This document shows positions 12,366 to 58,662 of a DNA stretch of 64,000 nt, one piece after another. The stretch's first letter is position 1. Every line of letters begins with the position of its first letter. Under the pieces are notes generated by a model, which saw only the letters and a list, made by a program, of their open reading frames with translations, was not told the DNA's origin and did not search any database. This DNA comes from Symploca sp. SIO2E9. Its GTDB lineage: Bacteria; Cyanobacteriota; Cyanobacteriia; Cyanobacteriales; Coleofasciculaceae. The position numbers and the translations under genes are program-made. The DNA lies in the NCBI GenBank assembly GCA_010692645.1, contig JAAHGS010000013.1:18741-82740 (forward strand). The letters run 5' to 3'.

Positions 12366-12683
12366 TTTAGAGCATTGGCGCAAATGGGTGGCGAAGAAAT
12401 GGCAAAAATACCAAACTGTTGCTAGGGAAAAACTCTTCCTTCAGCGGAGCAGGTAGGGGTAGTCGATTAAGTGTCGCTATTTCTGCTCCAGGAGTACCCT
12501 TGACTCTCAGGCTTTAAGTTGATCAGAATTTATTGGTTGGATTACCAGAACATTGATTAAAAATCATACTTTAGTAGTAGATTGCTAGGATTAGAGAGAG
12601 CTGCGGTTACAACTACATCAGGCTTGGTAAGCGGAATCTGGTAATTTTGATAAGTTGATTGTTCCCAGCGAGAGAAAAATCTA

Positions 12684-13346
12684 ATGGCTATTATTTATAC
12701 TGTCCATCCGGAAACACCGCAAAGGCGTCGAATAGAGAAAATAAGGGACGCCCTGCAAGATGGTGCTGTGATGCTATATCCTACAGACACTGTTTATGCA
12801 ATTGGGTGTGATCTCAATGTCAAGTCAGCAGTACAAAGAGTTAGACGTTTGAAGCAACTATCTAATGATAAGCCTCTGACCTTTCTCTGTTCTTCTCTGT
12901 CAAACATTGCCCAATATGCTAGAGTAGGCAACCAAGCTTACCGAATTATGAAGCACCTAATTCCGGGACCCTACACTTTCTTGCTACCAGCAACAAAGTT
13001 AGTACCAAGGCTAGTGATGAGTCCTAAGCGCAGAACTAGTGGTATCCGTGTTCCGGATCATCAGGTGTGTCAAGAGCTGCTAGAAGCTTTGGGCAATCCA
13101 ATTATTTCTACCTCCGCCCATCTACCAGATGAGGATGGTAAAACCCCAACAGTTGGGCTAGAGAAGGCAAAACTATTTGACTCTCTTGATACTCTGGTGG
13201 ACATAATTGTTGACAACAGCTTAGAACCTGGTCCTAAGGTTTCAACCATCATCGACATGACTGGTGATGAACCTGTAATTGTACGTCAAGGTCTTCAATG
13301 GGAGACAGCCGAGGCTTGGATTCAGCCTGCAATCCAAGGGCGGTAG
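12684..13346 (+). CDS. Sua5/YciO/YrdC-family protein, YciO type
   Basis: At 220 residues, this is a YrdC-fold protein with the dsRNA/ATP-binding-type motifs MLYPTDTVYAIGCD, RVRRLKQLSNDKPLTFLC, IPGPYTFLLPAT and GIRVPDH, followed by NPIISTSAHLPDEDG. YrdC/Sua5 proteins make threonylcarbamoyl-AMP for the t6A modification of tRNA. The opening HPETPQRRRIEKIRDAL and the overall pattern look closer to the YciO subgroup, whose exact role is less clear. It stands alone with its own upstream gap. Confidence 0.85.
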   Translation: MAIIYTVHPETPQRRRIEKIRDALQDGAVMLYPTDTVYAIGCDLNVKSAVQRVRRLKQLSNDKPLTFLCSSLSNIAQYARVGNQAYRIMKHLIPGPYTFLLPATKLVPRLVMSPKRRTSGIRVPDHQVCQELLEALGNPIISTSAHLPDEDGKTPTVGLEKAKLFDSLDTLVDIIVDNSLEPGPKVSTIIDMTGDEPVIVRQGLQWETAEAWIQPAIQGR

Positions 13347-13975
13347 TAAGCTCAGGACAAGGGTTGGCGATCGCCATTTGCTGACCTAGAGTTGGGTTAG
13401 GGGCACTTACCAGTAACTTAGAGCTACTCATCCAACAACTGAAGAAAAAACAATCATAGCATCCTCAATGTATAAGTGTCATCCCCATCTTTTAAAAGCC
13501 AATACACAGCTAGCAAAACTGCTGGCAACACTCTTCAAAACAGCCAGATTTGCTGGAAATGTAGGGTTGGCGATTTACTTTGACCTTGATCTCAGTATCA
13601 CTGTTAACAGGTGGCAGCGGTTGCTACCTCAACTAGGGTGGATTGGCAATTGTTAGCCACTGCCAAGATTGGCCTACTAAAACGCTGCTAGATTGCTCGA
13701 ACAGACAGGGGCAGTGTAAATCCTGAAACTGCTTGTACAGCAAGGGTTTACTAAGATATATCCTGCCTGTCAACAACTGTCGGTAAATATCGTTGGATAG
13801 TAGGCAATTCCCTAACATCAACCCACTACCAACTGGGGTTGGAAGTAGCTGTCTAAATTTAAGTAACAGACAGCAACAGAAACTAAACCCAGTAAATAGC
13901 ACCTACCACAAAAAACCATCAAACCTTCTGTTGGTATCGTCACAACTTATAACTGTCGTCTTTAGGGGCAATACC
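13347..13975. other. Gene-free region upstream of the HetZ-family gene
   Basis: These 629 bp hold a HIP1 site (GCGATCGC near 13367) and several short open frames without recognisable content. An in-frame extension of the next gene reaches back to 13793 but has a low-complexity, untypical sequence. The stretch probably carries the promoter of the HetZ-family gene. No terminator or RNA gene is evident. Confidence 0.4.
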
Positions 13976-54554: not shown

Positions 54555-56501
54555 ATGAAAAGTCTAGGGATTTGTCGTTACTCAATAGCAGTTTCTGTAT
54601 TAGCATTGGCAATACTCAGCTGTAGTGATCAAGTCGTCTCTACAACAAAAGCTGTGGAGACAGAACCGACAATCAAAACTTCTACGGCTAAAATAGTTGG
54701 TATTGAACCTGCAACTATTGAGTCTGAGTACAGGAATCAATGGACTCCCGAGTTAGAAGCAGAATTTCAAAATCGCGCCCAAGAGGTAATTAAATACTAC
54801 GCTGGTCAAAACTACGGCAATAATAGTGGGGAAAACGAGAAGCGTTCTTATCCTCGTGCCATGTTTCACTTCCTGGCAGGCAACCGGGAAAAGGCACTAA
54901 AGTTTTTACAATCAGAAGATGCCCAAGCTGGTGATAACAAACATACGGAAGGGATAGATTACTACTATTGCTTTACCCTTAAAGGGCAAATGAGAAAATA
55001 TTTTCTCTGGGGTCAATTCCTCGACCCTGCCTATAAACAGCGGATGTTTGATGGGGCTAAGGTGTGGACCGAAAAAGACCCCAAAGGACGCCCCCATCCT
55101 ATCTACGGCAAGGGCAAAGGGGGCGACGGCTGGGGACCTGATGTGCGCGGTGGTTGGGTAGATGGCCGCAATACTGACAATCTTAGGGCAATGCGAGAGG
55201 TAGCGGTTTATCTGATGGCAGAGGAAACTGGTAACGAAGACACCAAACTTCTCTATAAACAGAAAATTCAACGCTATGTCTGGGCGCTTTACAACATTGG
55301 TATGGGGGAGTGGGACTCAGAGAATTATCTCGGACATACCTTTGCTGCTTACCTGAACCTCTACGATTTTGCCAAAGATCCAGAAGTGAAACAATTGGGC
55401 AAAGCTGCCTTGGATTGGATGTCAGCGGCAGCAGCTGTTAAATATTATCGTGGTGGTATGGGAGGCCCGACTAAGCGCGATTATGGTAGAGCTAATGTAG
55501 TCTATGGTTCCACTGCTGCCCGTCTATTTTGGCTCTATTTTGGTGATACTGCTATTGCTAATCCTAAGCCAGAACCAGATTCAATTCATGTTATTACTAG
55601 TAACTATCGACCCCCGCAAGCAATTGTAGCCTTAGCGCGTAAACAATTTGACAAGCCCATAGAACTCTTTAGTAGTAAACCTGTATATGAAAATTGGAAA
55701 CCAGGGGGAGAGGATAAACCAGGTTATTGGGAAACCACTTTCTTTGGTAATAGTTATCAACTGGGAAGCTTAGCAGGTGCTTTTAGTGATGGTGATGTCG
55801 GCACTTTCAAGTTAATGGCTGATAACTCCGAGCGCGGCGTTGATTATTTTGTTGCCAATACTGGCGGTGAGTGGGTTCAGCCAGGAAAAAAAAGAGGGGA
55901 CCAAATTGGGCAATATCGTAACTTAGTTATCTGGTTAAGACCAAGCTTAGATCAACCCTTTTTCTTCCAATTACCTAAGACGGCAAAAGCAGAGATTGAA
56001 GAGGGCATTTGGTTTTTTGAACTAGAGAAAACTTGGTTGGCTGTACGTCCAATAAATCTTAGTTCCTATACTGAGGTTGCCATCTCTCGAAAGAAGTTTG
56101 CCAGAGAGTATGAACAAGAGCAAACTTTCAAGGCAACAACTAAGGGCAATGGTTATGCTGGTTTTGCTCTAGAAGTAGGTGAGAAGGAATCTCACAGCAG
56201 TTATGGGGATTTTAAACAGGCTGTGAAGACAAAAAGTCAGTTGAATTTAAGTGAAGTTTCTAAGGGGATAGTAGACTTGACTGGTGCCAAAGGTAACAGC
56301 ATTAAATTGACACATAATTCTAAACATGACTTACCAATTATTGTCCGCAATGGTGTCAAACATAACTGGTCACAACATTTTGAACTTTACAAATCTTCTC
56401 AAGGTCAAGCGCCGATTTCTTTAGGTTGGAAAACTGGTGATCTTAGTGTTGAGGCTGGTGGTTTAGTGTTTCAAATATCTGGTCCTATAAGTAATAAGTA
56501 A
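54555..56501 (+). CDS. Large predicted lipoprotein of unknown function
   Basis: The 648 residues open with a lipoprotein signal (YSIAVSVLALAILSC, lipobox at the final Cys), so the protein should be membrane-anchored outside the cytoplasm. The middle is rich in aromatic and Gly motifs (KGKGGDGWGPDVRGGWVDGRNTDNLRAM, WDSENYLGHTFAAYLNLYDFAKD, KYYRGGMGGPTKRDYGRANVVYG) on a helical background. This recalls alpha-toroid polysaccharide lyases, but I cannot identify the family or catalytic residues. The C-terminus is beta-rich. The stop codon and preceding codons are made of TAATAAG repeat units. Confidence 0.75.
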   Translation: MKSLGICRYSIAVSVLALAILSCSDQVVSTTKAVETEPTIKTSTAKIVGIEPATIESEYRNQWTPELEAEFQNRAQEVIKYYAGQNYGNNSGENEKRSYPRAMFHFLAGNREKALKFLQSEDAQAGDNKHTEGIDYYYCFTLKGQMRKYFLWGQFLDPAYKQRMFDGAKVWTEKDPKGRPHPIYGKGKGGDGWGPDVRGGWVDGRNTDNLRAMREVAVYLMAEETGNEDTKLLYKQKIQRYVWALYNIGMGEWDSENYLGHTFAAYLNLYDFAKDPEVKQLGKAALDWMSAAAAVKYYRGGMGGPTKRDYGRANVVYGSTAARLFWLYFGDTAIANPKPEPDSIHVITSNYRPPQAIVALARKQFDKPIELFSSKPVYENWKPGGEDKPGYWETTFFGNSYQLGSLAGAFSDGDVGTFKLMADNSERGVDYFVANTGGEWVQPGKKRGDQIGQYRNLVIWLRPSLDQPFFFQLPKTAKAEIEEGIWFFELEKTWLAVRPINLSSYTEVAISRKKFAREYEQEQTFKATTKGNGYAGFALEVGEKESHSSYGDFKQAVKTKSQLNLSEVSKGIVDLTGAKGNSIKLTHNSKHDLPIIVRNGVKHNWSQHFELYKSSQGQAPISLGWKTGDLSVEAGGLVFQISGPISNK

Positions 56502-56956: not shown

Positions 56957-57262
56957 ATGTCTCATCAGGAACTCAAAAATTTTATCGTTGCCGTCAAACA
57001 AGACGAATCGATGCGATCTCGCCTCAAAGAGGCTCAACCAGAGGAAATTCTCCGTATTGCTCAACAAGCGGGATTTAAGTTTTCCGAAGAGGTTCAGGGG
57101 CGTTTTAGGAATCGCTGGGCTGGTGTTTACAGCTGTCCCCAAAGGGAGGATATTAACGATATATGTCCGGCACTTTGTCCGCCAGGTTTTAAATCATTGG
57201 CTGAGTACTCCCAGTCAACATGCTCCCCTTACGATACAAAAGAGAAATCACTCAATAAATGA
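56957..57262 (+). CDS. Nif11-like small protein with Cys-rich tail
   Basis: Residues 1-50 match a Nif11-type leader domain (MSHQELKNFIVAVKQDESM, LRIAQQAGFKFSEEVQ). The rest is a Cys-rich tail (SCPQREDINDICPALCPP ... STCSPYDTKEKSLNK) with four cysteines. Nif11 domains occur as leaders of ribosomally made, modified peptides, but also on proteins with no such role, and no double-Gly cleavage motif or lanthionine/cyclase enzyme is seen here. The stop overlaps the next start by four bases (ATGA), so the pair is translated together. Product and function unknown. Confidence 0.75.
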   Translation: MSHQELKNFIVAVKQDESMRSRLKEAQPEEILRIAQQAGFKFSEEVQGRFRNRWAGVYSCPQREDINDICPALCPPGFKSLAEYSQSTCSPYDTKEKSLNK

Positions 57263-58662
57263 CTGCTTCAGCTTCCCATCAACCGATTGACTCTGTAGAG
57301 GCTGCCATAACCGCTTTGAAGAACAGTGACGATAGCGGAGTACGCTATTATGCCGCTTGGTGGTTGGGCAAAAACCGTATAATTAATGCTACTCCTCTTC
57401 TATGTGAGTGTCTTAAAGACGAGCGAGATCGAACCGCTCTAGGGGGCTATCCCCTTCGCCGTCAGGCAGCTCGTTCATTAAGAATGTTAAAAGAGCCACA
57501 GGCAGTACCAGCATTGATTGAAGCTTTAGAGTGCTCGGATCTCAAAGTTCAAGAAGCTGTGATTCTAGCATTGAAGGATATTGGTGATCGCACTGCAGTC
57601 CCAGCATTACTTAATATCCTTAATTCAAAGAGAAAGAACCTGCCAGCTGAGGCATTAATTGAGACTCTGACAGCGTTCCAAGTCTGGGAAGTTAAGAATC
57701 AGATTGAACCTTTTTTAGAGCACTCGTCTGAACGAGTAAAGTGTGCAGCAGCTCAATATTTCTATGCCCTAACCCTTGAACCTCGTTACCTAGAGATGCT
57801 TTTTCAAACTCTTGGTCATGAGAATCGGTTTTTACGATATGCAGCAGCATTTGATCTTTCAGAACTTGGTCGAGTCGAAACTGCACCGGCGATTGTTGAG
57901 GCTAAAATCTCCAACAATATTAAATTAGCAACTCTCAAGCGCATCTTAGAATTACTCTTACTGGATAAGACAGAAACAGAAGTTAGACGGCAAGAGCAAT
58001 CGAATTTCTTATTCCAAACCATTGATGAGCTTCTGCTGGATGGGATTGAAGGTAACATTAACAGAGCGAATACAGTGGAGGCAAATCAGGAAGTTGAGAA
58101 AATTAAGGCATTGGTGGCTCAACCCAACACAACTTCTCAACAACTGCCTGAAAGCCTGATTTCAGCATTGATCTCAGCGTTGAAATCTCCTTATCCCAAT
58201 GTGAAAGCTGCTGCCATCAAGGGATTAGTCGAATTAGCACCTGCCAGTGTTGATTTCATAATTCAGATATTTGATACTGATGAAGATCAAGACTTGAGGG
58301 CTGGACTAACTCAAGCCTTGATATATATTGGTGATCCACGAACACTGTCGCTGTTGGAAAAGGTGATTGGTTTTGAGATAGCTAATCATTGTCAAGGAAA
58401 GATCCGTCGAGTTGCAGCTCGTGGTTTAGGTAAAATTGGTCGTCAAGCTGGCGAGCCAGAAGTCATCTTACGAGCGATTGAAAAGCTCAAGTGGGCGTTA
58501 TTCCAGCCTGATGATTGGGCGCTTCGCTATAGTGCTGCTGTCTCACTTGAAGAAATCGCCAACAACGATGCGATTCTAACATTAGCGACTGCATCTGAGA
58601 GCGAATCTGATCTAGTCGTACAAACGAGGATTGAACGAGCTTTAGCAGCAATTGCTTGGTAA
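57259..58662 (+). CDS. Fused CpcE/CpcF-type HEAT-repeat protein (bilin lyase-like)
   Basis: The 467 residues are HEAT repeats throughout. The N-terminal half has the CpcE hallmarks SVEAAITALKNSDDSGVRYYAAWWLGK and DRTALGGYPLRRQAARSL. The C-terminal half resembles CpcF, with DDWALRYSAAVSLEEIA. Heterodimers of CpcE and CpcF, or fused relatives, attach or isomerise bilins on phycobiliproteins; some relatives detach them. No phycobiliprotein gene is close. Coupling to a Nif11-like small protein instead is unusual and may mean a different substrate (inference). Length equals the sum of a CpcE and a CpcF. Confidence 0.8.
   Translation: MTASASHQPIDSVEAAITALKNSDDSGVRYYAAWWLGKNRIINATPLLCECLKDERDRTALGGYPLRRQAARSLRMLKEPQAVPALIEALECSDLKVQEAVILALKDIGDRTAVPALLNILNSKRKNLPAEALIETLTAFQVWEVKNQIEPFLEHSSERVKCAAAQYFYALTLEPRYLEMLFQTLGHENRFLRYAAAFDLSELGRVETAPAIVEAKISNNIKLATLKRILELLLLDKTETEVRRQEQSNFLFQTIDELLLDGIEGNINRANTVEANQEVEKIKALVAQPNTTSQQLPESLISALISALKSPYPNVKAAAIKGLVELAPASVDFIIQIFDTDEDQDLRAGLTQALIYIGDPRTLSLLEKVIGFEIANHCQGKIRRVAARGLGKIGRQAGEPEVILRAIEKLKWALFQPDDWALRYSAAVSLEEIANNDAILTLATASESESDLVVQTRIERALAAIAW

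Follow-up and report, generated by a model that had tools for sequence, protein, structure and literature searches.

An unk10 Homolog Paired with a Predicted Isomerizing Bilin Lyase Gene in Symploca sp. SIO2E9

The stretch of DNA analyzed in this study (the window, 64,000 nucleotides of contig JAAHGS010000013.1 from Symploca sp. SIO2E9) contains a gene for a small Nif11-domain protein with a Cys-bearing tail that overlaps a gene for a protein resembling E/F-type bilin lyases. The locus raises the question of what such a small protein does beside a lyase. An earlier note, made from the sequence alone, suggested that the lyase-like protein acts on, or is guided by, the small protein. The answer that we consider probable is that the pair is an operon for making the blue-light pigment phycourobilin (PUB), in which the long protein would be a PEB-to-PUB lyase-isomerase of the RpcG type and the small protein, Unk10, its accessory or specificity factor.

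Organization of the Gene Pair

The two open reading frames extend from 56957-57262 (101 residues) and 57259-58662 (467 residues). These coordinates, the Nif11 domain, the four Cys of the tail, and the ATGA overlap, all described in the earlier note, were confirmed. The features of the pair, all on the forward strand, are as follows.

56957..57262, +, unk10 ortholog encoding a 101-residue Nif11-domain protein (PF07862, 48.7 bits; identity to Unk10 homologs)
56957..57091, +, Nif11 domain, residues 1-45 (PF07862 match)
57074..57139, +, most conserved block of Unk10, residues 40-61, FxFSxExxGRFxNRWxGVYxCP (18-sequence alignment)
57134..57223, +, Cys-bearing tail of Unk10, Cys60, Cys70, and Cys89 invariant and Cys74 variable (family alignment)
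57259..57262, +, ATGA stop/start overlap, confined to the window genome (other pairs have gaps of 0-96 bp)
57259..58662, +, RpcG-type PecE-PecF fusion, predicted isomerizing bilin lyase of 467 residues (NCBIfam, tree, and AF2 model)
57295..58035, +, E half of the fusion, residues 13-259 (NCBIfam CpcE match)
57346..57372, +, YYAAWWLGK motif in the E half (sequence comparison)
58087..58641, +, F half of the fusion, residues 277-461 (NCBIfam CpcF match)
58384..58401, +, NHCQGK isomerase motif, residues 376-381 of the fusion (found in PecF, RpcG, and unk10-linked fusions but not in CpcF)

The overlap had been read as translational coupling. It is present in the window but absent from every other pair: the gap between unk10 and the fusion gene is 0 bp in Crocosphaera (TAA ATG) and 46-96 bp in the other relatives. 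The overlap looks like the product of a small deletion because the window copy of Unk10 has lost the near-invariant C-terminal DFRSG. Just 5' of the pair, window positions 54555-56501 encode a 648-residue protein with a lipoprotein-like start and no convincing match in Pfam or NCBIfam.

The Small Protein Is Related to Unk10

The match of the small protein to the Nif11 family, 48.7 bits against a cut-off of 23.8, is confined to residues 1-45, whereas its relationship to Unk10 extends over nearly the full length. Unk10 relatives with about 74-81% identity are present in Moorena SIO3I8, Calothrix rhizosoleniae SC01, and Crocosphaera watsonii WH8501. The marine Synechococcus-type proteins, from 16 small genomes that belong to one family, are about 44-51% identical to it over residues 1-97, and the neighbors of unk10 in those genomes are FciA-like regulators, a DUF2237-type gene, or CpeZ/MpeU-type genes. 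Unk10 has been described as an orphan of 107-118 residues in type IV chromatic acclimation (CA4) islands, with an N-terminal Nif11 domain and without assigned function, and a Crocosphaera sequence served as the root of the published Unk10 tree (PMC3877281). Judged by this homology, the 101-residue protein is an ortholog of Unk10 from the CA4 islands of marine Synechococcus. It shares with the Unk10 of CA4-A and CA4-B islands and of high-PUB strains the Nif11 domain, the tail with three conserved Cys, and a location adjoining a PUB/PEB lyase gene (PMC3877281), but it differs in lacking the DFRSG end and in overlapping an RpcG-type gene, in a host without an fciA homolog.

All four tail Cys (60, 70, 74, and 89) are present in the window protein, but only Cys60, Cys70, and Cys89 are invariant in the alignment of 18 sequences. 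In the same alignment, 15 of the 22 positions in residues 40-61, which lie mostly past the Nif11 domain, are invariant, and mean conservation is 0.90 in this block as compared with 0.58 in residues 1-39. The C terminus reads DFRSG or DFRAG in 17 of the 17 other Unk10 proteins, whereas the window copy ends in KEKSLNK and may be impaired through the missing DFRSG end. No solved relative of Unk10 was found by sequence or by fold, and searches of viral contigs, plasmids, and phages revealed no Unk10. The window genome has a second Nif11 gene (L089 3597-3959, minus strand), which encodes a 120-residue protein with a tail unlike that of Unk10. In genome G546, a 205-residue protein (L147 7541-8158) with two Nif11-like stretches and weak Nif11 similarity is encoded near PEII-like genes and is reminiscent of the Unk7/Unk8 fusion reported for WH7803.

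A Nif11 domain is also the mark of leader peptides, and the earlier note had taken the small protein for one. Unk10 would then be a RiPP precursor, cleaved and modified by unnamed enzymes, and the lyase would be unrelated. The TIGR03798 model (leader_Nif11) does score the window protein at 46.8 bits, above its cut-off of 32.3, but covers it only up to position 46 of 68. Nif11 RiPP precursors are defined by a Gly-Gly site and a variable core (PMC2887384). No Gly-Gly cleavage motif follows the Nif11 region of Unk10: the window protein has no GG at all, and in its relatives GG occurs only near residue 103, beyond the Cys tail. The part past the Nif11 domain contains the most conserved residues of the protein rather than a hypervariable core, and no modification enzyme or exporter was recognized among the neighbors of the pair. 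Unk10 thus has the N-terminal domain of the Nif11 leader peptides (N11P, prochlorosins) but not their Gly-Gly site, hypervariable core, LanM, or YcaO. A RiPP identity was rejected because the Gly-Gly site and the hypervariable core are absent, and we regard this reading as highly improbable.

The Long Protein Is a PecE-PecF Fusion of the RpcG Type

The 467-residue protein matches the NCBIfam models for CpcE (residues 13-259, 218.7 bits, equivalog cut-off 330) and CpcF (residues 277-461, 86 bits, equivalog cut-off 220). Because both scores are below the cut-offs, it was treated as a protein with E and F halves fused in a single chain and not as canonical CpcE/CpcF. Of 195 genomes of the order, 187 contain some match to it, mostly canonical CpcE at ~45%. 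The closest matches comprise two groups: (i) fused proteins, at 48-84%, and (ii) separate E and F genes, at about 54% and 51%, which are arranged as in phycoerythrocyanin (pec) operons, together with a linker gene and a second cpcBA-like pair that is divergent. The operons of group ii are probably pec operons, judging by how the subunit sequences begin and by the NHCQG motif.

Every PecEF/RpcG-type protein contains the sequence (N/D)HCQG, which none of the CpcEF proteins tested has, and NHCQGN has been reported to be crucial to the isomerase activity of PecF (PMC2246261). The sixth position of the motif is K in all fusions linked to unk10 or to phycoerythrin (PE) genes, N in all cpcBA-linked RpcG and separate PecF proteins, and T or S in the fused proteins of pec operons. 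In the tree, the window fusion groups with the Moorena, Calothrix, and Crocosphaera fusions and marine RpcG with support of 100/98, which becomes 100/100 for the same clade with more members. The AF2 model of the fusion has a pLDDT of 88.8, and its best solved matches are MpeQ (Z 24.9) and CpcE (Z 24.3). The earlier assignment to the E/F lyases therefore stands, but motif and tree place the protein with the isomerizing PecE-PecF/RpcG type and not, as had been proposed, with a CpcE-CpcF fusion. Its lyase chemistry is well supported by these relationships. In comparisons of intact copies, dN/dS is roughly 0.08-0.27 in both genes of the pair, and both are under purifying selection.

RpcG is reported to be a PEB lyase-isomerase that acts on RpcA-Cys84 (PMC5318389). 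RpcG of marine Synechococcus is likewise a single-chain PecE-PecF fusion with the HCQG motif, in a common clade (100/100) with the window protein, but it lies beside cpcBA and has NHCQGN, whereas the window fusion has HCQGK and lies beside unk10. No cpcBA is present in the window, and the relatives of the window fusion have phycoerythrin genes nearby and adjoin cpeBA. PecE/PecF, the PCB-to-PVB lyase-isomerase of phycoerythrocyanin, is homologous in both halves (about 54% and 51%) and shares YYAAWWLGK and NHCQG, but it is usually encoded by two genes in pec-type operons, and no pec-type operon was seen here. The single-chain E/F lyase-isomerases MpeQ and MpeZ catalyze the same type of reaction, and MpeQ is the top structural match; however, they belong to the CpeY/MpeY branch with 21% identity over the structural alignment, and their mechanism is reported to involve Tyr318/Val319 (PMC9705338) and not an NHCQG motif.

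Conservation of the Pairing

In addition to the window, unk10 is located directly upstream of the fusion gene and on the same strand in Calothrix (L105), Crocosphaera (L106), and the picocyanobacterial genomes G546 (L147) and G593 (L148), so that the five genomes represent distant lineages. The pairing is thus beyond chance, because four other genomes have the two homologs side by side in the same orientation, and the co-occurrence check proposed in the earlier note bears out a real association. The gene order in G593 is fciA, a second fciA-like gene (in the fciB position), an MpeW-like gene, unk10, the fusion gene, and MpeU-like and cpeBA genes, so that this pair looks like part of a CA4-B island. 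The 151 picocyanobacterial genomes searched include 15 with unk10 and 6 with an RpcG-type gene, and none of the 6 lacks unk10 (hypergeometric probability 3.4e-7, with the genomes treated as unrelated and no correction for kinship). Because the remaining 9 of the 15 unk10 genomes have no RpcG-type gene, Unk10 is not an obligate subunit of the RpcG-type enzyme. G546 carries two RpcG-type fusions (L147 5090-6469 and 15097-16506); PEII-like genes adjoin one of them, and unk10 the other.

The earlier note held that a lyase-like gene occurring elsewhere without the small gene would speak against the association. This was found in part in Moorena, where the fusion is adjoined only by a decayed fragment of the unk10 tail (L073 12512-12634, minus strand, upstream of the fusion), yet an intact unk10 is present elsewhere, by a PE cluster. 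The fragment lacks the Nif11 domain and is unlikely to be a functional mini-Unk10 since the invariant Cys60 has been lost and dN/dS, about 0.14-0.27 over only 41 codons, is somewhat higher. No such fusion was found in a related species of the genus of the window at E 1e-60, and the distribution of the pair is therefore patchy; lateral transfer is possible.

Possible Roles of Unk10

In the proposed mechanism, the fusion would be a single-chain E/F-type lyase-isomerase. Its E half would bind the bilin and the acceptor and form the thioether bond to a conserved α-subunit cysteine, and its F half, through the His-Cys pair of NHCQGK, would shift a double bond to convert PEB to bound PUB (or PCB to phycoviolobilin). 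Unk10, made from the same message, would most likely assist the lyase or its acceptor as a small accessory protein, serving as a docking, specificity, or folding factor, with the Nif11 helices and the GRFxNRWxGVYxCP block as the predicted contact surface. The functional link between the lyase and the small Cys protein that the earlier note envisaged is supported by the conserved pairing. Because three kinds of E/F lyase (MpeZ, MpeW, and RpcG type) accompany Unk10, a general factor of the PUB/PEB lyase-acceptor step appears a better description than a fixed subunit.

The same change of partners would suit a regulator of pigment genes, acting on transcription or as a sensor of light quality or redox state through its Cys, with co-location reflecting a shared regulon; in CA4 islands, unk10 also accompanies the regulators fciA and fciB (PMC3877281). 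However, no DNA-binding fold was recognized in Unk10, and unk10 is kept in the window, Crocosphaera, Calothrix, and Moorena genomes, in which no FciA homolog was found at E 1e-5; at that threshold the window genome lacks the AraC-type regulators fciA/fciB of a CA4 island. FciA-dependent regulation was rejected because the search at E 1e-5 revealed no FciA homolog in these four non-picocyanobacterial genomes, and a regulatory role in general seems to us rather unlikely. The strongly conserved tail with its three invariant Cys and the conserved adjacency to lyase genes invite a different view, in which Unk10 itself carries PUB placed by the lyase on an invariant Cys, as a mini-antenna, a linker-like subunit, or a bilin carrier; Cys is, moreover, the residue that E/F lyases modify. 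These lyases act, however, on folded globin-like phycobiliprotein subunits, and Unk10 has no match to that fold. It also accompanies CA4 lyases of the MpeZ/MpeW type with a published phycoerythrin acceptor (PMC3877281), and its best-conserved block, GRFxNRWxGVY, has only one Cys. We consider a bilin-carrying Unk10 quite unlikely and retain the accessory or specificity factor as the preferred role.

Named relatives exist for both parts of the pair; the papers found in a limited search describe neither a direct unk10-lyase operon shared across lineages nor the HCQGK type. A broader proposal, which we offer tentatively and hold to be possible but doubtful, is that Unk10 serves E/F-type PUB lyase-isomerases as a dedicated subunit or specificity factor and that the HCQGK fusions form a distinct phycoerythrin-directed PUB class of oceanic and reef cyanobacteria. 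If this were true, the unk10-lyase operon would predate the CA4 island, which would have been assembled around it later. Unk10, the orphan of the CA4 islands, gains a concrete partner in the RpcG-type operon of Crocosphaera, Calothrix, Symploca, and picocyanobacteria, and the predicted phycoerythrin-directed branch of the RpcG family could be assayed in E. coli.

Acceptor of the Predicted Lyase-Isomerase

The earlier note had remarked that no phycobiliprotein is encoded nearby. This holds for the window, but cpcBA and three pairs of cpeBA lie elsewhere in the genome, which also has pebA/pebB-like genes, and the acceptor would thus lie in trans. The cpeBA pairs comprise two tandem copies of a second type and one standard pair (L070 13663-16320, L072 2688-3817); the β subunits of the second type have Cys60-Cys61, as in the PEII-like β subunit of G546. 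The pair in Crocosphaera and Calothrix is surrounded by cpeBA and CpeY-like genes, a broken fusion in G066 has two cpeBA pairs next to it, and one fusion in G546 is beside a PEII-like pair whose α subunit has Cys75/83/140. In Crocosphaera and Moorena, canonical CpcE is encoded directly 3' of cpcBA, so CpcA is already served there. Because of the PE genes near the pair or fusion, this placement of CpcE, and the K in the motif, a phycoerythrin subunit is predicted to be a likelier acceptor than phycocyanin. The likeliest would be the α subunit of a host phycoerythrin (Cys-80/82 site), and the second choice phycocyanin α-Cys84.

That second choice corresponds to a fusion acting exactly like RpcG, its nearest characterized relative, with the phycoerythrin neighborhood incidental. 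It would gain from the finding that no canonical CpcE was detected in Calothrix or in the window genome as assembled. The cpcBA contig of the window genome, however, ends about 330 bases after cpcA, where cpcE is expected, so that a gap is an equally likely reason for the missing host CpcE, and its absence was set aside as proof that the fusion serves CpcA. Other findings argue against phycocyanin: in Crocosphaera and Moorena a canonical CpcE accompanies cpcBA, every unk10-linked or PE-linked fusion has HCQGK instead of HCQGN, and G546 has two such fusions, one of them beside PEII-like genes. We regard phycocyanin as a possible acceptor but hardly the expected one.

In the PE cluster of the second type, two short ankyrin-repeat-like genes are located between cpeBA and the CpeY-like gene in the window genome, Moorena, and Calothrix (L070 (G000:C21) 12675-13518, L104 9696-10490, and L105 10995-11783). 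A 194-residue protein of the phycobilisome globin family (PF00502; L071 6686-7270) is encoded beside a 298-residue HEAT protein and is not an obvious antenna subunit.
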